Shown here: piece after piece, positions 19,261 to 38,148 of the stretch
Layout of the letters: each line of letters opens with the position of its first letter
Numbering within the stretch: the stretch's first letter is position 1
Assembly: GCF_018309085.1 (NCBI RefSeq)
Contig: NZ_CP070502.1
Span: forward strand, 1,612,001-1,676,000
Length of the DNA: 64,000 nucleotides
Origin: Sporosarcina sp. Marseille-Q4063
GTDB taxonomy: Bacteria > Bacillota > Bacilli > Bacillales_A > Planococcaceae
Reading direction: 5' to 3'
Translations under genes and position numbers: made by a program
The notes under the pieces: generated by a model
The model's input: the letters and a program-made list of their open reading frames with translations, nothing else
What the model was told of the DNA's origin: nothing
Database searches by the model: none

Positions 19261-19955
19261 TACTTCAAACGATATCCGCAAGCCGTTATTGCTGCTTCGG
19301 CAAGAACGAGAAGCGAATCGATGCATCCTTCAAGCTTTAATTCTTTACGCACGATTGACAGTTCCGTGCAGCCAAGAATAAGAACATCGCAACCCGCATC
19401 CTTCATCGATCGGCTGATTGCATTCCATTTATCTGGATCGGCAGGTTCTCCAGCTTTAACATCGTCATAAATGAGCGACATGACAAGTGATTGGATATGG
19501 GAATCTGGCAATACAGGTGTCATCCCATACTTTTCACACGCATCCTGATAAACGCCTGAAGAAATTGTCCCTGTAGTCGCAAGAATCCCTACACGCTCCG
19601 CATTAAGCTGTTTTGCACGTGCTGCCGTTTCATCAATCATATTGATAATGGGCAAATCCGATTCCTTTTGAATTTGATCGTAAAAGGAATGCGCAGTATT
19701 ACACGGCATGATTAATACTTCAGCTTCAGCTACGCGAAGTCGATTCGCATCAGAAATAATATACGGCACAGGATCATCCGTGCTTTCCCCTAAAATGAAT
19801 GCGGTTCGGTCCGGAATCGTTGTATTATTGGTGATAACCATATTTATATGTTCTTGATCTGTATCAGCATCTGTAAGTCGAACAAGCATTTCGCCAATAT
19901 ACATCGTCGCCAATGGCCCGACGCCGCCGATAATGCCTAAAGTTTTCTTTTTCAT
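19260..19955 (-). CDS. Aspartate/glutamate racemase family protein
   Basis: A 231-residue cofactor-independent racemase. The two catalytic cysteines are visible in MPCNTAH (about residue 84) and LGCTELS (about residue 196), with the N-terminal GIIGGVGPLAT motif of the Asp/Glu racemase family. It probably makes D-Asp or D-Glu. It is the third gene of a close operon with a FemX-type transferase (38 bp upstream) and an ATP-grasp ligase, a combination expected for peptidoglycan cross-bridge synthesis. A broad-specificity RacX role is the alternative. Confidence 0.87.
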   Translation of the reverse strand: MKKKTLGIIGGVGPLATMYIGEMLVRLTDADTDQEHINMVITNNTTIPDRTAFILGESTDDPVPYIISDANRLRVAEAEVLIMPCNTAHSFYDQIQKESDLPIINMIDETAARAKQLNAERVGILATTGTISSGVYQDACEKYGMTPVLPDSHIQSLVMSLIYDDVKAGEPADPDKWNAISRSMKDAGCDVLILGCTELSIVRKELKLEGCIDSLLVLAEAAITACGYRLK

Positions 19956-19993
19956 ATCACTTCAAAACCTTTACTTTATGATTTCACCAACAA

Positions 19994-21037
19994 TTATCTG
20001 CGACTAATTTTCTTCCGCAAGTTTTGGATTTTAGGAACGACAGACTCCAACACATTGTACATAAACGGTTTATAAACTTTGTTTATCTCACCAATGTACT
20101 GGGCAGGTTCATCTTTATCGCAAAAACTCTTTTTAAACATATATAAACCATCATTGTTCGACAGCTCGAAAACACCGCCAAAGTCGTATTGCTCGGCGCC
20201 TGTTTCAATTCCCCATTTAATCATCTCGTAATTCATGAGATGATTCGGGTTCAAGTTACGTTTTATATTCGTACTTCCTGCATACAAGAAATATAATTTC
20301 CCGTAATAATTAATTGTCAAACCAGCTGCTAATATATCATCTTCATGCGTCGCGATATAGATTCTGCAATTTTCTCCAAAAGAATCACGGATTTGCTTAA
20401 AGTATTCGACTGATCGAGTTGAAATTTTGTTCCGTGCGGCCATTGTCATATACGCATTATGAAGGATTTCAATATCTTCATCGCTTCTTGAATAACGGAC
20501 TTCTACGCCCCTTCTAGCCGAACCGCGAATCGAACTTCTACATCTTTTCGAAAACTTCATCATGATAGACTCTTCATCATGGTCTTCCAAATAGAGAATC
20601 ATATTTAATCTCGGTTGTATTAATTTGTCTTGATCATCATCTTTTGAAATTAAACTGAAACCGTTATTTTTATATAAATTGTACAATTCGTCCGAATACG
20701 ACACCTCTGGATCGAACTTCAACATAATTGCTTTATTTTTCTTAGCCACTACATCTGCTTCTTTAAGTAGCTCTTCCACGAGTTCAATATCTGAAACATC
20801 GCAAACCGGTCCCCTCGGTGCATAAAGAACTGAAAATCCACCAGGTAATCGCTTGATCAATATTGAAAGCGCGGCAACAATTTCACCGTTTTTTTCTAAA
20901 TAAACATGTTCGTTGCCCCAATCGTCCTTAACCTCAGACCATAAACGATCTTGAGTCACGGAACGAAATTTTGAGTTTCGAACAAAATGATCATATCTTT
21001 TCACGTCTTGCTTATTTGATTTATCAAGCAAAGCCAT
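19994..21037 (-). CDS. FemX/FemAB-family peptidoglycan bridge aminoacyltransferase
   Basis: Transfers an amino acid (Gly, Ala or Ser) from aminoacyl-tRNA to the lysine of the peptidoglycan precursor. The 347-residue protein has tandem GNAT-like domains; visible features include FSVLYAPRGPVCD, FSKRCRSSIRGSARRGVEVRY, AGLTINYYGKLYFLYAGS and ETGAEQYDFGGVF, all typical of FemABX proteins. GGAGGG precedes the ATG. It lies between an ATP-grasp ligase and an Asp/Glu racemase on the same strand, so it likely places the first residue of a Lys-X-D-Asp/D-Glu bridge. The amino acid used is not readable. Confidence 0.88.
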   Translation of the reverse strand: MALLDKSNKQDVKRYDHFVRNSKFRSVTQDRLWSEVKDDWGNEHVYLEKNGEIVAALSILIKRLPGGFSVLYAPRGPVCDVSDIELVEELLKEADVVAKKNKAIMLKFDPEVSYSDELYNLYKNNGFSLISKDDDQDKLIQPRLNMILYLEDHDEESIMMKFSKRCRSSIRGSARRGVEVRYSRSDEDIEILHNAYMTMAARNKISTRSVEYFKQIRDSFGENCRIYIATHEDDILAAGLTINYYGKLYFLYAGSTNIKRNLNPNHLMNYEMIKWGIETGAEQYDFGGVFELSNNDGLYMFKKSFCDKDEPAQYIGEINKVYKPFMYNVLESVVPKIQNLRKKISRR

Positions 21038-26973: not shown

Positions 26974-26998
26974 GTAGTAAAATGAAATGAGGAAAATC

Positions 26999-27337
26999 AT
27001 GGAGACGCATAAAAATCACATTCTCGAGACCAAACATTGTACATGTCCGCCGTGCAAACAAGTTGGTTGTCGAAAAGAGCTTTGCGATACGGAGTTTACA
27101 ATTCGATTAGAAGGGCTTGAAAATAGTATTACCTACAGACTCTACAGGCTACTTTGGAATGAAGTTATTCTTAAGTTGGACAACGGAAATAAAATTCAAG
27201 GCACCCTAAACTTTGTCGGATTCAATTTTGTGGAGATTATTACCGGAGACCCCAGCGAAGATAGACCACATGAAAAAGGACAATCATCAATTATCTCGGT
27301 TAAGGATATAGATAGGGTTGAATTAGTTTGTTTTTGA
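26999..27337 (+). CDS. Cys-rich N-terminus plus Sm/DUF2642-like small barrel protein
   Basis: 112 residues from the ATG at 26999 (GAGGAAAA upstream). The first 35 residues hold five Cys (CTCPPCKQVGC, ELC). The second half has the pattern of a small five-stranded barrel: NEVILKLDNGNKIQGTLNFVGFNFVEII, then SVKDIDRVELV, like the DUF2642/spore-coat Sm-like proteins. The sigma-K-type -10 upstream and the resemblance to MnxE/MnxF-type proteins nearby suggest a spore-surface role. No enzymatic function is implied. Confidence 0.6.
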   Translation: METHKNHILETKHCTCPPCKQVGCRKELCDTEFTIRLEGLENSITYRLYRLLWNEVILKLDNGNKIQGTLNFVGFNFVEIITGDPSEDRPHEKGQSSIISVKDIDRVELVCF

Positions 27338-27873: not shown

Positions 27874-28458
27874 ATGACTTTCTTATATTTTATAGTTGGG
27901 TACTGTGCTTTATATTTAGTGATTTGGTTACATGAAGTTGGACATGGGGTCGTATATGCAAAATATAAATGCAAAGACAATCCTTTTAAGGTTCATGTGC
28001 CATTCTATTTATTCTTCTCTACACCCCAGCCTGTTGATGAAAAAAAGGCACAAACTCTAAATGGTAAACAGTATTTTAATGTTGGAATAGCGGGAATAAT
28101 AGTGAATCTGCTTATTGGTATCCCTATATCCTTCCTTTTACTAAACATCGAGTTTAATAACTCTATTTTAGTTTTCTTTTTTTATTCTTTTGCCTTATTT
28201 CATTTAGTGGAGGCTGCAAGTTACTTGACAATTAGCAATGTTTTTCTTGCAAGTGATATGATAACTGTACAAAACTACAAACCAAAATTAAGAATACCCT
28301 TATTTTTAATAGGAATATTCTTAGTTGTCCTAATCACTTTCATGCTAATCAAAAGTCCTGAAAGTTGGAAACTGGGATACATTATTTCAATAATAATCAT
28401 GATTTCATGCATGGGATTAGGAAGAATCGTCTTTAGCCGAAGAACACGGACTGCGTAG
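27874..28458 (+). CDS. M50-like membrane metalloprotease (HExxH)
   Basis: 194 residues, mostly hydrophobic with five to six helices. HEVGH lies in the first helix (YLVIWLHEVGHGVVYA), followed by a FNVGIAGIIVNLLIGIP helix like the second motif of site-2 proteases, and SDM in a later segment as a candidate third ligand site. This fits a minimal M50-family intramembrane protease. AGGTGAT precedes the ATG, and a terminator follows. Codon use looks more A/T-rich than in flanking genes, and the gene sits alone among repeats, so lateral acquisition is possible. Substrate unknown. Confidence 0.65.
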   Translation: MTFLYFIVGYCALYLVIWLHEVGHGVVYAKYKCKDNPFKVHVPFYLFFSTPQPVDEKKAQTLNGKQYFNVGIAGIIVNLLIGIPISFLLLNIEFNNSILVFFFYSFALFHLVEAASYLTISNVFLASDMITVQNYKPKLRIPLFLIGIFLVVLITFMLIKSPESWKLGYIISIIIMISCMGLGRIVFSRRTRTA

Positions 28459-29027: not shown

Positions 29028-29260
29028 GTGGAGGGCGGCGACTCCAGCCGAATCAGCGAAGTGCGAAAGAGAAGTTCACTCTTTCCTTAGCCCAGACCCT
29101 GCAGGAAGAGCCGTCACGAAGAACGGCTTTTGCGACCGAAAAGCGGAGCGTTTGGGAGCACGGTTTTAGCGACGAAGCGGCTGGGAAAGATTGAACTGTA
29201 TCTTTCCGCACTTGTCCGCTCGCCCGAAGGAAAGCGTCCGCCCGCAACGAAAATCAACGA
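29028..29260. repeat. Large palindromic intergenic element C
   Basis: A GC-richer block starting GGAGGGCGGCGACTCC and ending AAAGCGTCCGCCCGC, so the ends are inverted (GGGCGG/CCGCCC). Inside, 29061-29086 (GTGCGAAAGAG...CTTTCC) pairs with 29184-29211 (GGAAAGA...TTTCCGCAC), and CCCAG/CTGGG and CCGTC..ACGG pair further in. It resembles a dispersed repeat I recall from many Bacillaceae intergenic regions. Short frames that cross it on both strands are not believed. Confidence 0.7.
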
Positions 29261-29262
29261 AC

Positions 29263-29306
29263 ATATAAAAACCGTGTACTTGAATAAGAACTGTTCAAGT
29301 CACGGT
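29263..29306 (-). terminator. Terminator of the mnx operon
   Basis: On the minus strand ACCGTGACTTGAA pairs with TTCAAGTACACGGT (one bulge) and a TTTTTATA tail follows, just after the last gene of the operon. Confidence 0.8.
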
Positions 29307-29321
29307 AAATTTCGGATTTTT

Positions 29322-30005
29322 TTACAAGTTAACAGCTATTAACGACACTTCCTCAATCGGTATGACATTCCTCTTTCCATCTACATCCACCGTGATTGAT
29401 TCTTTATTTGCATCGGATATAACCCCTTCGATAATCATGTCTTCAAGCGTTACTTTAACTCGTTTATCTTCTAGTAAACGTAAATAGATATCCAAAGGGA
29501 TTCCGAAAAACAGCTGGATCAATTTTGGTGAGGAAGCAACGGCTTCACCGAAATGAGCGGTTAATTTGCGTTGTAATGATGGTTTCAAACCGTCAATTTT
29601 CGACTCCGGATAGGGCTCTGCGTACTTTCCATATGGCTGTATCCCATCAATCTTGTCAAATGGAACTAGAGTTGTATGCCTATTTTCCCGTAGAACCAGA
29701 AAATCAGATCCAACTAAGGTGACGACCCCTATAACTTTTTCATCCTTATGGTTCGCGATTTCAACACGAAGTCCGGTCAATCCGTCAAAAACCTTTCGAT
29801 AGGTTTCATTGGACGAACGGCTATCTGATAGCGCCAAATCAAGCAGCAGCTCATTTGTATCCCTTATTTGTTCTATCAACTTAGCCAATTCATCTGGGGG
29901 CAAACAATCCGCCGGGGAAGGAAGTTGCGGCGAAGGAAATCGTTCAGGACAACAATGTTCTTCTTCATGCAATTTATCTTCATTATCCATATCGTCACAA
30001 CCCAT
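29322..30005 (-). CDS. Two-barrel Sm/DUF2642-like protein downstream of mnxG
   Basis: 227 residues. After an acidic, Pro-rich N-terminus come two copies of a small beta-barrel pattern: LRVEIANHKDEKVIGVVTLVGSDFLVLREN..TLVPFDKIDGI (about 78-122) and KRVKVTLEDMIIEGVISDANKESITVDVDG..VIPIEEVSLIAV (about 183-225). The start overlaps the mnxG stop by 11 nt, so it is translationally coupled and belongs to the mnx operon; an ATG at 29990 is the alternative start. Similar two-barrel layout is seen in MnxD. I know of no name for it. It may be an accessory or anchor subunit of the Mnx complex (inference). Confidence 0.75.
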   Translation of the reverse strand: MGCDDMDNEDKLHEEEHCCPERFPSPQLPSPADCLPPDELAKLIEQIRDTNELLLDLALSDSRSSNETYRKVFDGLTGLRVEIANHKDEKVIGVVTLVGSDFLVLRENRHTTLVPFDKIDGIQPYGKYAEPYPESKIDGLKPSLQRKLTAHFGEAVASSPKLIQLFFGIPLDIYLRLLEDKRVKVTLEDMIIEGVISDANKESITVDVDGKRNVIPIEEVSLIAVNL

Positions 30006-33000
30006 CCAAATCTATTTTTAATGGTGGCAAATGTTCTTGTAACGCGTTATAAACTCTCATGATTCCCCACATGCCTTGCTCGATGTCCCATTGAATATTT
30101 CCAGAGCGGTACATATAATCTCCTGGATGGTTCCCGTAAGCACCGGCTCCGCCCAACAGTTCTAGATTTCGCACGGCGCCTGCAACGTTGAATCCAACGA
30201 ATGATTCCGTTCGCGAATTGATATCCTTTGTATCGAAACGAAAGCGATGTCCATGAAGATTGAACGTGTGTGACCTACGTCGTTCTGACGGTGTGACTAA
30301 TCGAATTGTTACTGGATCCCCTACATAACTTTCAAACAAAGGGGTTGCTGGATCCCCAAACACATGAGAACTAAATAAATCATGTAGCACTTTTTCTTTT
30401 TGATAGCGGTTAATTAACCGTTCACTTCGATAATTAAAACCGCGTGAGCCTTGGTCATACGTATCAAGTAAATCCTCATCAATCTCTGGCGGCGGCAACA
30501 AAATGCCGTCAACCGGATCGAAAATGACTTGGTTATTTTTATCGAGTAGTCTCACGCCGTCATGCATAATCATGACAAATTCTCGTATTTCCGGTAAAAA
30601 AGGATTGCGCAAAATAACATTCGCTCCGGTTCGAACCGGCTTCAACGTATATGGATCCAAATATTCGGTTCCCCTTGGTTCCGCGATAAAAGCCCCAAAT
30701 GCACCGTGCGATTTATGGTTTCGTATATCTGCCATATCCCACATACCGCAGGCGCCTACTTGAGATACTACCCACCAACGATAGGTTCTTTTTTCACCAG
30801 GTCCAATCGTTTGGTCTCCGTTAAATCCAACAGTCTCCCCTGCCGAATTTTTCACATCATATTGAATTAGTTGGGGGTGCAGCGAAATTCGTAAGGACGG
30901 TGGATAAAACGCTTGCTCTTTCACTTCAGGATAAGGATGAATCCCATCTTTGAAGGGGAATTTATCGAATTCCAACAGACTCGTTAACGTTACTTCCACG
31001 GTATCGCCGACATTGGCCCGAATAATTAAAGGTTCTGGATTTTTCGTTCCTTTTACAATCGCGTCCATATCCTCTCGAAGCGCGAAAATAATTCCATGCG
31101 GATCATGATCACCGAAATCGTTATAAACTATCGGACATTGGAAAGCGACTATATCAAAATAGCGGACTGGCCCATTTTCCACGGGAATAAGCACGGGATT
31201 TTCTGCTTGCGGCGGCTTTTTCCCATTACATTCTGGCAGCGGCTTTGAACGCTTTGATGGTTTCGGTCTATCTGATAGAGGAATTAAATCCGGCACTTTT
31301 TCATCATAAGCGCGGATTAACCCCCAAAGCCCGTTCCATAAATCTTCTTCTGTCTCGAACGCCCATAAATAATCGCCGGAACGTGGAATATACGTTTCCA
31401 TCGTGAACGATTCAGAAATTCCGATATGCTGTTGCTCTTCTTGATTTGAATCCAAACTTCCGCGTTCTTTCAGCCAACTTAATCCATGAACGTTAAAGCT
31501 ATGAGATTCTTCTTGAGCACCTTGAAGAAGGCGAATGCGAATTGAATCTCCTTCGTAAGCTCTCAATATTGGCGTGATTGGGTCGCCGTGAGTATAGGAA
31601 CTGAACGAATACGCTGGATCAGCATCAGGACCTAGTCGAAATTGCAAAGGTTCATTTTTATAATTCACACCAAATAAACCCGGGTCATCATCAGATCCTG
31701 GAAACTTCGGCGGTTGAAGGGGTTTGCCATTTTTATCGAACAACAAAGCGAAGTCTTGAACAAATAATGCAAAATCGCGATAATCAGGAATTAGTGGATT
31801 ACTAGAAGTGATTTGCGTTCCATGAACGACTTCCTCTCCTGTCTTGCAATCTAAAAACTTGGTGAACCGTGGATGTACAACGCCCGTTCCGAATACGCCA
31901 TGTTGCTGATGCGCGTTTGGATACATATGATCATGGAAAAACCATGCTTTCAACTCGACGTCAGCGTAATAGGAGTATTGCATCGTTTCGCCCGGTAAAA
32001 TGGAAGAATCATAATTCCATCCGACATTCGCCCCATCATTAACCAATACATCAAATTTTACAAAGTGGATATGAAATCCTGTCTCGTATGTTCTTGTCAC
32101 AAGTTGAAACGCATCCCCGTCAAGAATATGAGGCAATCTATTCGTGTAATTAATGTGGAAACAAGTATGAGCTGACGCATGAATTACGAGAGGTTCAGGT
32201 TCTTTCTCCCCTGAACAAACAGCTTCCAAGTCTTCATCTAAAACATAAACCCTTCCCTTTGGGTCATGCCAACCTTGCTTATTATAGGTAACTGGCAACT
32301 CGATTAGTGAAATGTTATACACCTTCACCGGTGCTTCTCCAATACATGGGTCTGTAAATACCGCACCCGGTCTTGGTTTTTCAATAGCAGCATTTTTCTC
32401 TAACTCAGTCAAACCCCTGCCGCCAACAATTCCAAGTGGCGGACGCGGCGCCTTGTATCCTACTTTTCCGGGAATGAAATTTGGAAATCCTGGCTTTAAT
32501 TTTGTCGGTTTTGGCGGTGCTTTCCGGTCGGGTAATGGTTGCAATGATTTAATCGGAACGCCGTTAGGATAGCACTGGCTGCCATCTTGAAGTGTATTAA
32601 AAACCCGATTCATCCCCCACATTCCGGCCGCAAAATGTGGATATAGATGACAGTGAATAACTGCATCTCCAAAAGACCCTTGCAAACTACCCAATCCGTA
32701 TAGCGGTTCAATCGTGTAATGCGACTGCGGGCTTGTCGCTTGCGCATCGAAAATTTCAGAAGAAAGGTCCTGCGTGTCGCTCAACCATTGATGAACATGA
32801 TAATGAAAGACGTGCGTTTCTTTTACCCCGCCGTGGACAACTCTAATTTTTGCAGGGTCACCGATATATCCTCGTAGAATTGGCGTAGACGGATCCCCGT
32901 AAACCCATGAATCATGATGGACTTCTTCTCCCTCACAATTTGGACAAACAACACCTTCAGTAATTAACTGTTGGCGCCTATTCACAGGTTCATACCGGTA

Positions 33001-33654
33001 ATTAGCCCCGTGAAATGATTCCTCTTCCTGGTTCGTTAAATGATTTATCGGACGATTCCCCGTTAAATCATCAACTTCCATTTCGTCATGAAAAACCCAA
33101 GCATATTCCCGAAAAGACGGCAAAATCGGGTGATGAATGTCAGCATATACACCGCTATTCATCGGCTTTCCCGTTTCGGGATCGGTCCACCAAGAAAAGC
33201 GTTTCTGAACAAACAACGCGCCGAACAGACCATTCGAATTAGAACCATTTTCACCACTTGACGGATTTGCTAAATCGGAAAAATAATACGTTCCTTCTTT
33301 AACGGCATGGATTCGATATAAATAAGAATCATCGGGAGAAACTGTACTTTCATCATTCAATCCAACGTTCACACCGTCAGCATTTCTCACATCATATTCA
33401 GCTTGTTGAAAATGGAGGCCCACGTGGAAGGATAATTGATTTTCAAGCAGAATCTCCACTGTATCTCCTTCATTTGCCCGAATAATTAGGGGTTGAACAA
33501 GGTCAACGGGAGAGAAAGGATTTTTCTCAACCATTTTCTTTACTTTCTGTTCATTTTCTTTTAATACGAAGATCATTCCATTTGGATTATGATCTCCGAA
33601 CGAGTTCAAAACGATTCGAATTGGAATCGCTACCGCATGGTATCTTCTTATCAT
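29995..33654 (-). CDS. mnxG: MnxG, giant multicopper oxidase (Mn(II) oxidase)
   Basis: MnxG of marine Bacillus SG-1 spores oxidises Mn(II) to Mn(III) and Mn(IV) oxide with O2. This protein is 1219 residues from the ATG at 33654 (AAAGGAGG upstream; a TTG at 33675 precedes that site), nearly the SG-1 length (about 1217). Repeated cupredoxin units are visible. Copper motifs: HVFHYHVH (His281, 284, 286, 288), HCHLYPHFAAGM (His334-Cys335-His336, His340, Met345: the type 1/trinuclear signature), HIH at 528-530, HDHMYPNAHQQH (574-585), HSFNVHG (718-723) and a C-terminal HTFNLHGHRF. The HCH signature lies in the N-terminal third rather than at the end, so the copper sites are permuted relative to laccases. 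A CPNC pair lies near 237-240. It is the last named gene of mnxABCDEFG. Confidence 0.93.
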   Translation of the reverse strand: MIRRYHAVAIPIRIVLNSFGDHNPNGMIFVLKENEQKVKKMVEKNPFSPVDLVQPLIIRANEGDTVEILLENQLSFHVGLHFQQAEYDVRNADGVNVGLNDESTVSPDDSYLYRIHAVKEGTYYFSDLANPSSGENGSNSNGLFGALFVQKRFSWWTDPETGKPMNSGVYADIHHPILPSFREYAWVFHDEMEVDDLTGNRPINHLTNQEEESFHGANYRYEPVNRRQQLITEGVVCPNCEGEEVHHDSWVYGDPSTPILRGYIGDPAKIRVVHGGVKETHVFHYHVHQWLSDTQDLSSEIFDAQATSPQSHYTIEPLYGLGSLQGSFGDAVIHCHLYPHFAAGMWGMNRVFNTLQDGSQCYPNGVPIKSLQPLPDRKAPPKPTKLKPGFPNFIPGKVGYKAPRPPLGIVGGRGLTELEKNAAIEKPRPGAVFTDPCIGEAPVKVYNISLIELPVTYNKQGWHDPKGRVYVLDEDLEAVCSGEKEPEPLVIHASAHTCFHINYTNRLPHILDGDAFQLVTRTYETGFHIHFVKFDVLVNDGANVGWNYDSSILPGETMQYSYYADVELKAWFFHDHMYPNAHQQHGVFGTGVVHPRFTKFLDCKTGEEVVHGTQITSSNPLIPDYRDFALFVQDFALLFDKNGKPLQPPKFPGSDDDPGLFGVNYKNEPLQFRLGPDADPAYSFSSYTHGDPITPILRAYEGDSIRIRLLQGAQEESHSFNVHGLSWLKERGSLDSNQEEQQHIGISESFTMETYIPRSGDYLWAFETEEDLWNGLWGLIRAYDEKVPDLIPLSDRPKPSKRSKPLPECNGKKPPQAENPVLIPVENGPVRYFDIVAFQCPIVYNDFGDHDPHGIIFALREDMDAIVKGTKNPEPLIIRANVGDTVEVTLTSLLEFDKFPFKDGIHPYPEVKEQAFYPPSLRISLHPQLIQYDVKNSAGETVGFNGDQTIGPGEKRTYRWWVVSQVGACGMWDMADIRNHKSHGAFGAFIAEPRGTEYLDPYTLKPVRTGANVILRNPFLPEIREFVMIMHDGVRLLDKNNQVIFDPVDGILLPPPEIDEDLLDTYDQGSRGFNYRSERLINRYQKEKVLHDLFSSHVFGDPATPLFESYVGDPVTIRLVTPSERRRSHTFNLHGHRFRFDTKDINSRTESFVGFNVAGAVRNLELLGGAGAYGNHPGDYMYRSGNIQWDIEQGMWGIMRVYNALQEHLPPLKIDLDGL

Positions 33655-33671
33655 GGGATACCTCCTTTCTA

Positions 33672-33959
33672 TCAATCTTTCAATTCAGGTATTTTCGGAC
33701 CGAGTCCTGTTTCTATATAAAAAACATCAATTGAGTGAATATGCAAGGTCCATTCTTTCCCTTCCAAGGCGGGGATGGAAGTCGTCTCGACAGCCAATAA
33801 GGCCATGTCATTGGTCAATGATTTAATCGTGCCAATAAACATAAACGGGAAAGCTTCTGTTAATATAAACACCCGCCGTCCGATATTTTTCCTGAAATGT
33901 TCAATAATCCCCTCATCCTTACTGGCATTAATCGATTTACTTTCACGATTAGTTGTCAT
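33672..33959 (-). CDS. mnxF: MnxF, small accessory subunit of Mn oxidase
   Basis: 95 residues directly upstream of mnxG (18 bp to its start). In SG-1, MnxE and MnxF bind MnxG in the purified oxidase complex and can bind copper. The sequence has an N-terminal charged part and a barrel-like pattern (GRRVFILTEAFPFMFIGTIKSLTNDMALLAVE..WTLHIHSIDVFYIE), Sm/DUF2642-like. An H-x-H pair (HIHS) near the end could bind metal. The start is ATG behind GAGGGG. Assignment is by operon position and size. Confidence 0.83.
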   Translation of the reverse strand: MTTNRESKSINASKDEGIIEHFRKNIGRRVFILTEAFPFMFIGTIKSLTNDMALLAVETTSIPALEGKEWTLHIHSIDVFYIETGLGPKIPELKD

Positions 33960-33977
33960 GTTTACCCCTCTCTTTGA

Positions 33978-34268
33978 TCATAATAACGGGAATACCTCAT
34001 CACTTGGAACTTCGGTCGTGAAGGATACAATTTGTTCAAGCGGAATACTAAGCGGAAACGGAAATTCATAAAACGGTGCATTCACCATTTTTATGATGAC
34101 GGGTGAAAGTGTCAGATGCCCTTCGCCGACCTCAGTAACTCTTCCATTAAAAATCGGTCGAAAAACTTGACCTAATAAGTTAAGTTGTACCGCCCGTGTT
34201 ATGACTAAAAGTTCTTTTCCTTTCAAATTCAGTAAATCCTCATCGTGTATGAAAGCTGGTTGAACCAT
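33978..34268 (-). CDS. mnxE: MnxE, small accessory subunit of Mn oxidase
   Basis: 96 residues between mnxD and mnxF, with GGGAGG upstream of the ATG. Pattern of a small beta-barrel: KELLVITRAVQLNLLGQVFRPIFNGRVTEVGEGHLTLSPVIIKM..FPLSIPLEQIVSFTTEVP. In SG-1 the MnxE and MnxF subunits form a small-subunit assembly around MnxG; the Sm-like pattern seen here would suit a ring. Identity comes from gene order and size. Confidence 0.83.
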   Translation of the reverse strand: MVQPAFIHDEDLLNLKGKELLVITRAVQLNLLGQVFRPIFNGRVTEVGEGHLTLSPVIIKMVNAPFYEFPFPLSIPLEQIVSFTTEVPSDEVFPLL

Positions 34269-34272
34269 TTAA

Positions 34273-34953
34273 CTACCTCCCTTTCTTAACTAATAAGTTC
34301 CTCCAAATAGCAAACCATCGGACTGTGGAAACGTATTGTAATTCACTCAATTTGATTGCCTTTTCTTTATTGAAAAGCTTGAGGAAAAGTTCTTTTTTGG
34401 TTGTATTCTTTATTTTTCCGTAACAAGTTTTTTTACTTGTTCGAACTTCCACCCATAAACCTTTCCATGAATGGAGATTTGTTTGAAGTGATTCTTCAAA
34501 AAACTGTCGAACGAGTTCCTCCCTTTTGGCTACCGTGTCGCCAAATTGAAGGACGAGTTTTTGTTGCAAGTGATTGTCATAGATAAAATGTTGTTGGGAG
34601 TCGGAATAAGTAGGAAATCCAAAGGGGATAGTTGCGGATTCAATCGCTGGATAAGGAATCCAGATTCGTTTTCTTAAATCAGTAATCATGACAAAATCTC
34701 GTCCAATCGTTGACACTTTTCCTTCAGTCGTCACGGTCACGTTTTCATTAATGACAGAAGAAACGACTACTTGTTGGTGTCGTTTCATTTTAAAAAACTG
34801 CTTCAACATTACGGGTTTCCGAAGCGTTTCATCTTTTCGGGTTACCCTGAACAAGTTTTTCTGGTGAATATATTCTGTCAGCACCCTCGTTTCTTCCGAG
34901 GAAACAGCACTTGTCGGCGATGAAAATGCTTCAGGTAATTTCTTTTCTTGCAT
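34273..34953 (-). CDS. mnxD: MnxD, two-barrel protein of the Mn oxidase operon
   Basis: 226 residues. Two small-barrel patterns occur: QVVVSSVINENVTVTTEGKVSTIGRDFVMITDLRKRIWIPYPAIESATIP (about 68-118) and GLWVEVRTSKKTCYGKIKNTTKKELFLKLFNKEKAIKLSELQYV (about 168-212). This is the same design as the gene downstream of mnxG. No signal peptide. The stop is 4 bp before the mnxE start. Function of MnxD is not established; a structural role in the spore-surface complex is an inference. Confidence 0.8.
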   Translation of the reverse strand: MQEKKLPEAFSSPTSAVSSEETRVLTEYIHQKNLFRVTRKDETLRKPVMLKQFFKMKRHQQVVVSSVINENVTVTTEGKVSTIGRDFVMITDLRKRIWIPYPAIESATIPFGFPTYSDSQQHFIYDNHLQQKLVLQFGDTVAKREELVRQFFEESLQTNLHSWKGLWVEVRTSKKTCYGKIKNTTKKELFLKLFNKEKAIKLSELQYVSTVRWFAIWRNLLVKKGR

Positions 34954-34995
34954 AATGGTCGGCCTCCAATGAACTTGTGAGAAAATAAATCCAAG

Positions 34996-35589
34996 TTATT
35001 TGATTAACATCTCCAAATGGTTTGCAATCTCTTCGATATTGACGCGTTTTTTTCCTATTGCCATATCATGATGGGCTCTTATATAATCATTGGAATCGAC
35101 AATATACATGGATGTGGAGTGAGTGACAAAGCCGTCTACATTTTTTTCATAATAGAAATTAAAATACTGTGTGAATTTCTTTGTTTCTTCTAGTGATCCT
35201 CGTATAAATAACCAGTTCGGACTCGTTATTTCAAATAACTCTTTATATTGATTTATTCTCTCACTTGTATCATATTCAGGATCCAGTGTGACAGATAGGA
35301 TAATATACCGGTCATCTGCGATACCTTTTTCTCGCATCAGTTTTTGGAACTCTTTCAGGTCCCACATTGTCATGGGACAAATGTCTGGACAATTTGTAAA
35401 GAAAAACGATATTAGCTTCGGTTTATCATGAAAGTCTTGACTATTTCCATCTTCAGTTAGCGACCATTCTTCCACAGTTCCTATTTTCGGCAAATCAATC
35501 GACTGCGGCCAAAAGAGATAAAAAGCCATAAATCCAACTACCAATAAAAGCAAACTCCCTAATTTCTTCAGTGTAAATCCCTCCCTCAC
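34996..35589 (-). CDS. mnxC: MnxC, SCO1/SenC-type thioredoxin-fold protein
   Basis: 197 residues with one N-terminal membrane anchor (LGSLLLLVVGFMAFYLFW) and a SCO1/SenC domain. The copper-binding CxxxC motif is visible as NCPDICPM, the distal His is likely in FVTHSTSMYIVD, and SVTLDPEYDT matches the family. SCO proteins deliver copper to or reduce cuproenzymes, so MnxC is a candidate copper chaperone for MnxG. The GTG start at 35589 overlaps the mnxB stop (GTGA); GGGAGGG lies inside the frame, so a rare CTG start at 35571 cannot be excluded. Confidence 0.88.
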   Translation of the reverse strand: MREGFTLKKLGSLLLLVVGFMAFYLFWPQSIDLPKIGTVEEWSLTEDGNSQDFHDKPKLISFFFTNCPDICPMTMWDLKEFQKLMREKGIADDRYIILSVTLDPEYDTSERINQYKELFEITSPNWLFIRGSLEETKKFTQYFNFYYEKNVDGFVTHSTSMYIVDSNDYIRAHHDMAIGKKRVNIEEIANHLEMLIK

Positions 35590-36041
35590 ACCTTAAATGA
35601 ATAACGGACGATCCGACAGACTAGCGTTAAAAGACAAGCCGCGAAAGTTGCAAGGGAGAGCATATTTATCTCAATCATTGATTCTGCTTCCATAGGAATC
35701 TTACACAGAGCCGGATTCTTCAGAACAGCGCCTAGCATTGTTCCCATGACGCCCCCGATGATGCCATTGTAAATCCCATTTAATGCAGCTGGTGCTTTTA
35801 GTAAAGAACCGAATCTCCATCCGATGAGTAACGCAACTATCATCGGAAACAGAAAAAAAGCTCGATCATCTAACAACAATTTCAATTGAAGCGCCACCAC
35901 CAATGAAGATACTGATGTAATTGCCGTGCACATTGTCATGATAAAACGGTCATCGACTAACAATTTTTTCTTATTTAATAGTAAATACACGATTGTTAAT
36001 TCGACTAAATTCCAAATAAATAATATACCGATGATAAGCAA
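35586..36041 (-). CDS. mnxB: MnxB, integral membrane protein
   Basis: 151 residues with four to five hydrophobic helices and a central glycine-rich segment (GIYNGIIGGVMGTMLGAVL). The second gene of the mnx operon; it begins 8 bp after the mnxA stop with a TTG codon. It shares its layout with MnxA (paired helices around G-M-V/M-G-x-M), suggesting that the two come from a duplication or form a heteromer. Function unknown. Confidence 0.75.
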   Translation of the reverse strand: MLIIGILFIWNLVELTIVYLLLNKKKLLVDDRFIMTMCTAITSVSSLVVALQLKLLLDDRAFFLFPMIVALLIGWRFGSLLKAPAALNGIYNGIIGGVMGTMLGAVLKNPALCKIPMEAESMIEINMLSLATFAACLLTLVCRIVRYSFKV

Positions 36042-36049
36042 TGTTTACG

Positions 36050-36469
36050 TCACGCCCTTCTGATTGAAATCGAGATTGCGAGCAAACATAACGCAAACAA
36101 TCCGTGAATGAATATGATAAACACGGACGGCATTTCTATAACCGTTCCAATCATCGGAGCCATTATCCCAATGACCATCCCATTCGTTAACCCAGTCACA
36201 AATGTTTGGTAATCGAATAAAAGACCAAATAATGCGCCTACTCCTAATCCGATCAATGTAGAAATTATCGTAATTAACGTAAAGTGAAATGGATATTGAC
36301 TAATTAGAAGCACGCCGGCAAGCATTGCAGTCATGCCGCCCATTACAATGCTAATATTCATCCCCAATTGAAATCCGATTCGTTTTTTTATCCCCAGTAA
36401 ATAAGCGTAAAAACCAAGGGCTATAAAAATATCTGCATAGATAAAAATCAAAGTCGCAAGTTTAGCCAT
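36050..36469 (-). CDS. mnxA: MnxA, integral membrane protein
   Basis: 139 residues, four to five hydrophobic helices, with the segment GLTNGMVIGIMAPMIGTVIEMPSVFIIF. First gene of the mnx operon, with GAGGTGGAG upstream of the ATG and a sigma-K-like promoter close in front. Function unknown; a membrane role in the mother cell or forespore outer membrane is possible. Identity is by operon order relative to SG-1. Confidence 0.77.
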   Translation of the reverse strand: MAKLATLIFIYADIFIALGFYAYLLGIKKRIGFQLGMNISIVMGGMTAMLAGVLLISQYPFHFTLITIISTLIGLGVGALFGLLFDYQTFVTGLTNGMVIGIMAPMIGTVIEMPSVFIIFIHGLFALCLLAISISIRRA

Positions 36470-36484
36470 AGCTCCACCTCTACA

Positions 36485-36512
36485 TACATTATGGAATTAC
36501 AAATGCGAACGT
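36485..36512 (-). promoter_or_regulatory. Sigma-K-like promoter of the mnx operon
   Basis: On the minus strand CATAATGTA (36493-36485) matches the sigma-K -10 consensus CATANNNTA at every fixed base, and an AC lies 17 nt upstream (36512-36511) as the -35. It is about 16 bp from the mnxA start. The SG-1 mnx operon is known to be expressed during mid to late sporulation from a sigma-K-type promoter. Confidence 0.75.
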
Positions 36513-36582: not shown

Positions 36583-36628
36583 GTAATAAGTTTTTTGAAA
36601 TTTAACAGGTTTGGAGGTAGGAAAATAT

Positions 36629-37282
36629 ATGGATGACTGCAACTATTGCCGTGAATGCGACAGATGTAAAGGATCGCGTGGCCCTAGGGGATTTAGAGGC
36701 CCCAGAGGCTATGAAGGCCCTGCCGGTTATGACGGGGAACGAGGAATCCCTGGCCCTAAAGGAGAGCCAGGAAGACCGGGACCTCGAGGATTTACTGGAG
36801 AAAAAGGGGACAAAGGAGATCAGGGACCAATCGGACCAAAAGGCGATAAAGGAGATAAAGGTGATAAAGGCTCAAGAGGTGAACGGGGTCCAAAAGGAAG
36901 TTTCGAATCCGCATACGGCTTCGCCTATACTGAAACCGGTAATTCCGATTCTGGTATTATCGATTTTTGCGAATCAGGACCTTTATGTGAAGTTCAATTA
37001 ACAAACAAAGGTTTAAAGATAACGAATGATGGCGTTTATCAAATCGATTACAAAATCGTCCTCGAATCACAAGTGATCACCTGCACGCCTTCATCTTTTC
37101 AAATCAAGATTAATGATTTATATGATTTATCGTACTCGATGACGGAATCACTCACTTCGAATACGTTGAATTCTAGTCAGCTAGTCAAGTTAAAAGAGGG
37201 AGACGTTGTCATGCTTGTTGCTGATTTACAAGAGCATTTTCATTATAAGTTAGCGACATTGCAAGTTATACAAGTAGGATGA
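36629..37282 (+). CDS. Collagen-like spore-surface protein (BclA type)
   Basis: 217 residues from the ATG at 36629 (TTGGAGGT upstream). Three parts: an N-terminal cluster of four Cys spaced C-x2-C-x2-C-x2-C (residues 4, 7, 10, 13); about 25 Gly-X-Y triplets (residues 15 to about 91) rich in GPR, GDK and GPK; and a C-terminal beta-rich domain of about 125 residues with C1q/TNF-like strands ([33 protein letters not shown]), like the BclA trimerisation domain. Such proteins form hair-like filaments on the exosporium. The Cys cluster replaces the usual BclA-type anchoring sequence. Start of a two-gene operon. Confidence 0.85.
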
Positions 37283-38148
37283 CCATTAATCGTGTCAATC
37301 TATCCAACCTGGAATACTATAAGTATGGTGAATACTATATGGGGAGTGAACATTCAATTTCTACATTTGTAACCCAATCGTTGGAAGAGATTCGATTTTG
37401 GTCACGGATTATGAAAGAGCACGCATTCTTTTTAAGTTTGGGATTTACCGCGGATGATACAAAGTTAATACAAGAGGCAAAGCATTACATTGCAATATTT
37501 GAACGGATTGAAGAACAAGCTAGTGAATATAACGAAAGAACAGACCCTGAAGTGATTAGAAATTTTAATATTCAAGTCTATCAAGCAGCAGTTTCTATTT
37601 GGGCATATAAACGAAAAGTACTCGGGCTTATTTTACATTGTCAAATTAACGGAAATAACTTTCCGTTATTAGTTGACCATATTAGCCGGGAAGCATTTTA
37701 TTTTGCTAAACGATTAAAAGAATTAAATGAAGGTAAGATAAAGCCTTTAGCCGATGCAATTATCGATGAGAATGTATTTTTCTTGAAAATAATGGCGGAT
37801 CACTCAAAATTCATAGGGCACTTGTTAGATCCTTCTGAAAGAAAACTTGTCGATCAAGCACGTGGGTTCAGCGAAGATTTCGACAAACTTCTTTACCAGG
37901 CACAAGACCTGGATCATATGCGTCCTCAATCCGAAACAAAACCGCTCTTTGAACAATTTCTTGATCAAAATCGCGTGTCTGTTGTGTCGTTACGAGACTT
38001 CAAGAAAACAGCAAGAGAGTTAATCGAGGAGTGTAAAATAAAAAGCATCATCCACCCTCTTCTTGCCGACCATGTTTTCCGTGAAGCAAGTCACTTCCTT
38101 GAAATTATCGATGCCTTTGATGCACATCTTTCCGCACAAAAGGCTTAA
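37279..38148 (+). CDS. DUF2935 protein
   Basis: 289 residues with two tandem helical DUF2935 modules (residues about 18-145 and 150-285). His/Glu-bearing helices are visible: [56 protein letters not shown] and [14 protein letters not shown], a pattern of four-helix bundles that could bind metal. The ATG overlaps the collagen-like gene stop (ATGA), so the two are translationally coupled. Known only as a domain of unknown function; the position next to mnx suggests a spore-surface or metal-related task (inference). Confidence 0.8.

Follow-up and report, generated by a model that had tools for sequence, protein, structure and literature searches.

The window examined here is the whole 64,000-nucleotide stretch at positions 1,612,001 to 1,676,000 of contig NZ_CP070502.1 of Sporosarcina sp. 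Marseille-Q4063, and it contains eight open reading frames (ORFs), all on the minus strand and running from 36469 to 29322, which correspond to the manganese oxidase genes mnxABCDEFG followed by an eighth gene. We call the eighth gene mnxH and a convergent companion gene J; both names are coined in this analysis. A first-pass annotation, made from this DNA alone, had given the mnxABCDEFG order, the gene sizes and the position of the operon, all of which are borne out by the ORFs, and had assigned the DNA to a Sporosarcina-type genome, in agreement with the MnxG locus found in Sporosarcina ureae DSM 2281 (L010), a member of the same genus. The genes are as follows, with protein lengths in amino acids (aa).

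36050..36469, minus strand: mnxA, 139 aa, small membrane-type protein, paralogue of mnxB
35586..36041, minus strand: mnxB, 151 aa, TTG start, small membrane-type protein
34996..35589, minus strand: mnxC, 197 aa, GTG start, SCO1/SenC-type (Pfam SCO1-SenC, E 1.9e-23), CPDIC motif
34273..34953, minus strand: mnxD, 226 aa, two Sm-like barrels
33978..34268, minus strand: mnxE, 96 aa, matching PDB 9bxa_B MnxE (E 1.9e-28)
33672..33959, minus strand: mnxF, 95 aa, matching PDB 9bxa_E MnxF (E 6.2e-25)
29995..33654, minus strand: mnxG, 1219 aa, multicopper Mn(II) oxidase, matching PDB 9bxa_A MnxG (2010 bits)
29322..29990, minus strand: mnxH, 222 aa, N-terminal Cys-containing segment followed by two Sm-like barrels
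26987..27337, plus strand: gene J, 116 aa with 6 Cys and 4 His, Cys/His-containing N-terminus and one Sm-like barrel, convergent to mnxH

Translation of mnxH may start at ATG 30005 (227 aa, with an 11-nucleotide (nt) overlap with the mnxG stop) or at ATG 29990 (222 aa, 4 nt past the stop).

Judged by its sequence, and as the first-pass annotation had it, the locus encodes a Mn(II) oxidase of the Mnx type; it adds a new member to a known system. The window proteins MnxG, MnxE and MnxF match the chains of PDB entry 9bxa, which is presumably the same complex as the published MnxE3F3G. In a PDB sequence search, the solved MnxG aligned to residues 8-1220 of the window ORF with 2010 bits; this ORF encodes 1226 aa from an upstream TTG and 1219 aa from ATG 33654, and the alignment begins at that ATG. 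The next-best PDB matches were two-domain laccases with at most 35.4 bits, and among the 44 PDB sequences that the search listed at E 0.1 there is no protein named CotA. Identity as a spore laccase of the CotA/bilirubin-oxidase type, with small flanking genes unlike those of Mnx, was therefore rejected. The type 1 and trinuclear copper ligands of such oxidases lie in the motifs HxH, HxH, HxxHxH and HCHxxxHxxxxM, and this set is complete in window MnxG. The HCHxxxHxxxxM site noted in the first-pass annotation is confirmed at residues 334-345, and the ligand residues H528, H530, H574, H576, H281, H284, H286, H334, C335, H336, H340 and M345 are all invariant among 14 aligned MnxG proteins. Two further traits of Bacillus-type Mnx were found, namely mnxE and mnxF as the genes immediately preceding mnxG and a SCO-type mnxC within the operon. 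The window genome (one contig, 3,978,257 bases) contains a single MnxG match. The NCBIfam model NF041487, which we take to describe the Pseudomonas-type MnxG, shares the gene name and the multicopper oxidase class with window MnxG; however, the model has 1894 positions and the window protein scores 334.7 bits against a cut-off of 3100, indicating a different family, and the model was rejected.

The operon of the marine Bacillus sp. SG-1 has the same A-B-C-D-E-F-G-H order, on one strand, as that of the window. Aligned by BLASTP to their SG-1 counterparts, the window proteins were 43 (MnxA), 35 (MnxB), 43 (MnxC), 52 (MnxD), 72 (MnxE), 56 (MnxF), 76 (MnxG) and 36% (eighth protein) identical. The SG-1 operon was reportedly described in 1996 as seven genes, yet the SG-1 genome carries mnxH (L023:13670-14491, about 19400-20221 of NZ_ABCF01000025.1), whose ATG lies 15 nt past the mnxG stop, with AAAGGTGGTG in between. 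SG-1 differs from the window in a 681-aa PKD-domain gene divergent from mnxA, which was not found beside the window operon. PMC5622069 describes the Mnx complex of Bacillus sp. PL-12 as MnxE3F3G with an alternating E/F hexamer, names an mnxDEFG construct in its methods and gives mnxEFG as the minimum for activity; unlike the window operon, this recombinant complex was made without MnxH. The E and F segments of 9bxa are 95-100% identical to those of their closest loci here (L031, L033 and L039), which have mnxH directly behind mnxG.

Distribution of mnxH and gene J

MnxG stretches confirmed in a scan of genome contigs, made with a MnxG alignment, numbered 136. We kept the best 80, which form 78 loci, and added the window to give 79 loci. 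Iterated profiles do not keep D apart from H or A from B; D and H were therefore told apart by a tree, and A and B by the best single-sequence score. The first-pass annotation had asked whether the eighth gene recurs after mnxG elsewhere, and it is found near mnxG in 68 of the 79 loci. Only mnxG itself, mnxF and mnxE were more frequent (79, 77 and 73 loci), whereas mnxD, A, B and C were less so (64, 61, 52 and 47). The order A-B-C-D-E-F-G-H was found in 20 loci, including the window and SG-1, and is not always tight, with about 2 kb between C and D in L018 and L060. In 13 loci mnxH stands divergent upstream of A, with C behind G, and in five (L040, L070, L073, L076 and L077) only E-F-G-H was seen; MnxG is 58-60% identical to the query in four of these five. 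Eleven loci are without mnxH (L016, L026, L027, L032, L045, L054, L056, L057, L059, L061 and L079). Three of these (L027, L057 and L061) are second mnxG copies whose sister loci (L022, L049 and L018) have it, and the genomes of L026/L032, L056 and L059 carry it elsewhere. In a manual count of titles, 69 of the 73 named MnxG-bearing genomes possess mnxH; an automatic grouping, which merged or divided three names, gave 72 genomes. Two mnxG copies stand at L019, L024, L035, L046 and L052, with mnxH between or after the copies in L019, L035, L046 and L052. The mnxG of L079 is interrupted by a stop, a decayed mnx locus.

At the genome level, we defined an H-grade match as at least 178 bits with the H profile, a score at which MnxD, reaching at most 116, is excluded. 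Among 261 genomes of the order, 44 had MnxG (E 1e-100), and H-grade matches occurred in 42 of these, at most 300 bases from mnxG in every case, whereas none of the 217 genomes without MnxG had one (Fisher P about 1e-46, uncorrected for kinship). In the MnxG-less genomes of the order, the H profile otherwise matched a D broken by a stop, in G173, and gave three further hits of 22.9-23.9 bits. A class sample of 398 genomes contained 14 with MnxG, 9 of them already in the order set; mnxH was present in 13 of the 14, one being less certain (G331, 129 bits, upstream of mnxG), and in four of the five outside the order set. No full mnxH was found in the 384 MnxG-less genomes of the class, where 38-bit partial matches lie in 93-aa frames of G372 and G480. 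A partial mnxG match at G191:C1:380005-382320, accompanied by H and J matches without stops, represents another decayed mnx locus. Thus, mnxH is a conserved component in most of the MnxG-bearing genomes sampled, SG-1 included. The first-pass annotation had regarded the eighth gene as added to the SG-1 operon, and a lineage-specific addition or chance neighbour could draw on nothing except the reported seven-gene description of that operon; its presence in SG-1 itself, in 68 of 79 loci and in 42 of 44 against 0 of 217 genomes refutes this view, which we consider practically discarded.

Gene J was found in 64 of the 79 loci, always together with mnxH (both 64, mnxH alone 4, J alone 0, neither 11). 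In 49 of these 64 loci J and the H nearest to it point towards each other, in 40 of them within 500 bp. J was present in 39 of the 44 MnxG genomes of the order (the exceptions being G060, G074, G151, G235 and G245) and in one of the 217 without MnxG. This sole exception, G173 (L093), has an mnxC match, the stop-broken mnxD and J with no mnxG match, and looks like a decayed mnx locus. Two of the 40 J genome matches are marginal (G233, E 1.4e-8; G243, E 5e-6), the window's own J match in the genome search ran on through stops, and distant members, down to 45 bits, depend on an iterated profile rich in Cys and His. Measured in 58 of the 64 members, the Cys plus His fraction of J has a median of 0.24, against 0.049 for the background of all ORFs. 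No Pfam match above cut-off was obtained for window J and six relatives, and no NCBIfam match for window J and five relatives. Window J is short and displaced by about 2 kb from mnxH; J directly adjoins mnxH in several relatives. A weakly M50-peptidase-like gene, sub-threshold, lies between the two in the window (27874-28458, plus strand).

Folds and paralogy of MnxD, MnxH and J

The tree of 132 D and H proteins separates a D clade (64) from an H clade (68) with 100% support in the SH-like approximate likelihood ratio test (SH-aLRT), four long-branch rows being of unsure placement. Window MnxH falls in a starred 11-row set and in the 68-row H clade, and shares with the SG-1 eighth protein an 18-row group within that clade (support 92, not starred). 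Together with the H-D profile comparison (99.9%), the tree marks mnxH, at the sequence level, as an old paralogue of mnxD. A barrel-only profile comparison, based on 58 of the 64 J proteins, gave 96.9% for the J barrel against the first H barrel and at most 0.6% for the controls C, A and B; this supports homology of the J barrel with H and D, but not with E (4.2%) or F (8.3%). MnxA and MnxB are likewise paralogues, with a profile probability of 99.5%.

Predicted structures contain two Sm/Hfq-like barrels in each of MnxD and MnxH, in line with the first-pass annotation, and the MnxH barrel superposes on solved Sm-like proteins of the LSm/Hfq fold. No PDB sequence relative of MnxH was found, the best match being at E 0.85 or worse; the 9bxa chains were absent from the 50 structure matches listed for each of MnxH and MnxD, which does not imply a difference in fold. 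The leading structure matches of MnxH include Hfq proteins, which would speak for an Hfq-like RNA-binding regulator of mnx expression. Hfq proteins carry a K-H signature near the C-terminus, however, and KH occurs within the last 40 residues of only two of 68 MnxH proteins; MnxH is also acidic, and the spore coat protein GerQ shows the same fold. Identity as an Hfq RNA chaperone was rejected on the signature, and the regulatory role is very improbable.

Membership of MnxH in known families sharing this barrel was also rejected. Unlike the spore-coat filament protein GerQ/YwdL, MnxH does not belong to Pfam Spore_GerQ (PF09671), which matched one of 43 aligned proteins at E 0.023 and window MnxH not at all at E 0.1. 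The RimP C-terminal SH3 family (19 of 43 aligned proteins, best E 2e-8, window MnxH sub-threshold) and DUF2642 (9 of 43, best E 8e-4) are read as sharing the barrel type only.

MnxH has a median isoelectric point (pI) of 5.1, acidic as are E, F and G, against 9.6 for MnxD. It is the least conserved of D-H, with a median pairwise identity of 0.33 over 56 loci (MnxG, 0.69), as would be expected if it faced lineage-specific coat proteins. The identity correlation between G and H (0.74) does not exceed that between D and G (0.82) or F and G (0.84), and is thus evidence of co-inheritance only.

Expression signals and neighbouring genes

Two candidate signals flank the operon.

36485..36512, minus strand: SigK-like promoter candidate, AC followed by 17 nt and CATAATGTA, its 3' end 16 nt upstream of the mnxA ATG
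29267..29305, minus strand: intrinsic-terminator-like hairpin and U-run, just 3' of mnxH

The SigK consensus is CATAnnnTA, and the candidate matches it at 6 of 6 fixed positions, a score that 1% of 200 shuffles attained. Among the 36 loci that begin with A, six have an exact match of this kind, the window included, and 30 do not. A search for the sigma-K family gave two strong sub-cut-off matches in the window genome and was also positive in 11 of 14 control genomes, and is therefore little informative. For the 76-nt stretch 29255-29330 the folding energy is -17.2 kcal/mol (z -2.79), and the hairpin within it probably marks the end of the operon. Our terminator pattern scan was limited to a loop of 8; it did not list this hairpin, and within the same limit it listed no terminator-like site between window mnxG and mnxH. 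In two Paenisporosarcina, strong hairpins occupy the mnxG-mnxH gap (L003:13507-13580, z -2.8; L014:13646-13716, z -3.8), with pyrimidine- or T-rich 3' sides, and could possibly be attenuators that set the level of MnxH.

A BclA-like collagen-repeat gene (36611-37282, plus strand; Pfam Collagen 5e-17) lies divergent from mnxA at a distance of about 140 bp and is followed by a DUF2935 gene (37279-38148, plus strand). Collagen-repeat ORFs with at least 12 triplets were present in 12 of the 79 loci. A protein of 627-692 aa is encoded near the mnx genes in 11 of the 79, including SG-1 (L023:4713-6758) and not the window, and the two that were scanned have PKD domains.

Possible roles of MnxH

The best explanation as a whole, which we favour with moderate confidence, is that the window holds a complete eight-gene mnxABCDEFGH operon with the convergent companion J, and that MnxH is a scaffold or anchor for the oxidase; it is moderately likely that MnxH acts as a structural adaptor holding the MnxEFG oxidase in the outer spore layers. 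According to this model, the mnx genes would be expressed in the mother cell late in sporulation, as the candidate SigK-like site would suggest, MnxC would supply copper, and MnxG with the MnxE3F3 ring would be the catalytic part, oxidising Mn(II) by way of Mn(III) to Mn(IV) oxide. MnxD and MnxH, as tandem Sm-like barrel proteins, would be non-catalytic scaffolds; the MnxH barrels may pack on the oxidase or on adjacent coat polymers, while its Cys-bearing N-terminus may serve as a crosslinker or anchor that keeps the oxidase in the outer coat or exosporium. J would contribute a Cys/His-rich arm, for metal binding or crosslinking, on the same kind of barrel.

Several observations weigh against this model. 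Recombinant Mnx from mnxDEFG or mnxEFG constructs is active without MnxH, according to PMC5622069. MnxH is missing from four of the 73 named genomes (Domibacillus tundrae, Jeotgalibacillus soli, J. salarius and a Thermaerobacter metagenome-assembled genome), and G060 and G151 have MnxG and D without H, so that some lineages dispense with it. The Cys segment of MnxH is not conserved at each position, and the relative placement of the barrels in the models is unsure (predicted template modelling scores 0.64 and 0.70). The Sm-like fold is widespread, and the likeness to GerQ is not outstanding, the Z scores of the GerQ and Hfq structure matches lying less than 1 apart; the single GerQ sequence compared matched the first H barrel only, over about 30 columns (74.6%). 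Finally, the MnxF profile does not resemble those of D or H (0.8-3.8%) and D-E comparisons are weak (2.6-19.2%), so that these comparisons do not support a common origin of all barrels. This last point bears on a broader and more tentative idea, that the native spore Mn oxidase is larger than MnxEFG, with MnxD, MnxH and J, from one duplicated spore-barrel family, stacking or polymerising with a MnxE3F3 ring that would itself be Sm-like, into a metal-loaded exosporium scaffold.

The main rival to the adaptor role, which we regard as unlikely, is an assembly factor or chaperone that acts in the mother cell, where it would help to fold, copper-load or assemble MnxEFG, without being retained on the spore. 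The close co-occurrence of mnxH with mnxG, the acidity that MnxH shares with E, F and G, its rapid divergence and a possible copper handover via its Cys-bearing N-terminus would all suit such a factor, but a SCO-type copper protein is already present as mnxC, Sm-like barrels often occur in rings or filaments, and recombinant E, F and G already assemble and are active in Escherichia coli, as stated in PMC5622069. It is still less probable that MnxH is a subunit of the native complex that alters the product by tuning the MnxE/F ring, Mn(III) retention or oxide nucleation. The second H barrel has a profile similarity of 63% to MnxE, H alone is kept beside E-F-G in five loci, and its acidic charge could serve this function; nevertheless, H is the least conserved of D-H, unlike a catalytic surface, it has no similarity to MnxF, and Mnx activity without H is reported in the same source.

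The genes mnxH and J look like overlooked components of a known system, although earlier priority is possible. We found no use of mnxH in this sense (one unrelated match) in the literature searched, to which the original SG-1 operon paper and the 9bxa structure paper did not belong, and the phrase 'downstream of mnxG' was absent from the 12 papers listed out of 21. It is reasonable to predict, as the first-pass annotation did, that spores of this organism precipitate Mn oxide. Mnx is a well-studied bacterial Mn(II) oxidase, and the questions about it concern, to our knowledge, its attachment to the spore and the roles of MnxA, MnxB and MnxD. The recombinant constructs lacked mnxH and J (PMC5622069), and MnxE was said there in 2017 to have no known homologues; the partial profile link to the second MnxH barrel may provide a possible relative for it. 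As both mnxH and J occur in most sampled MnxG genomes, they would offer direct, deletable handles on these questions.

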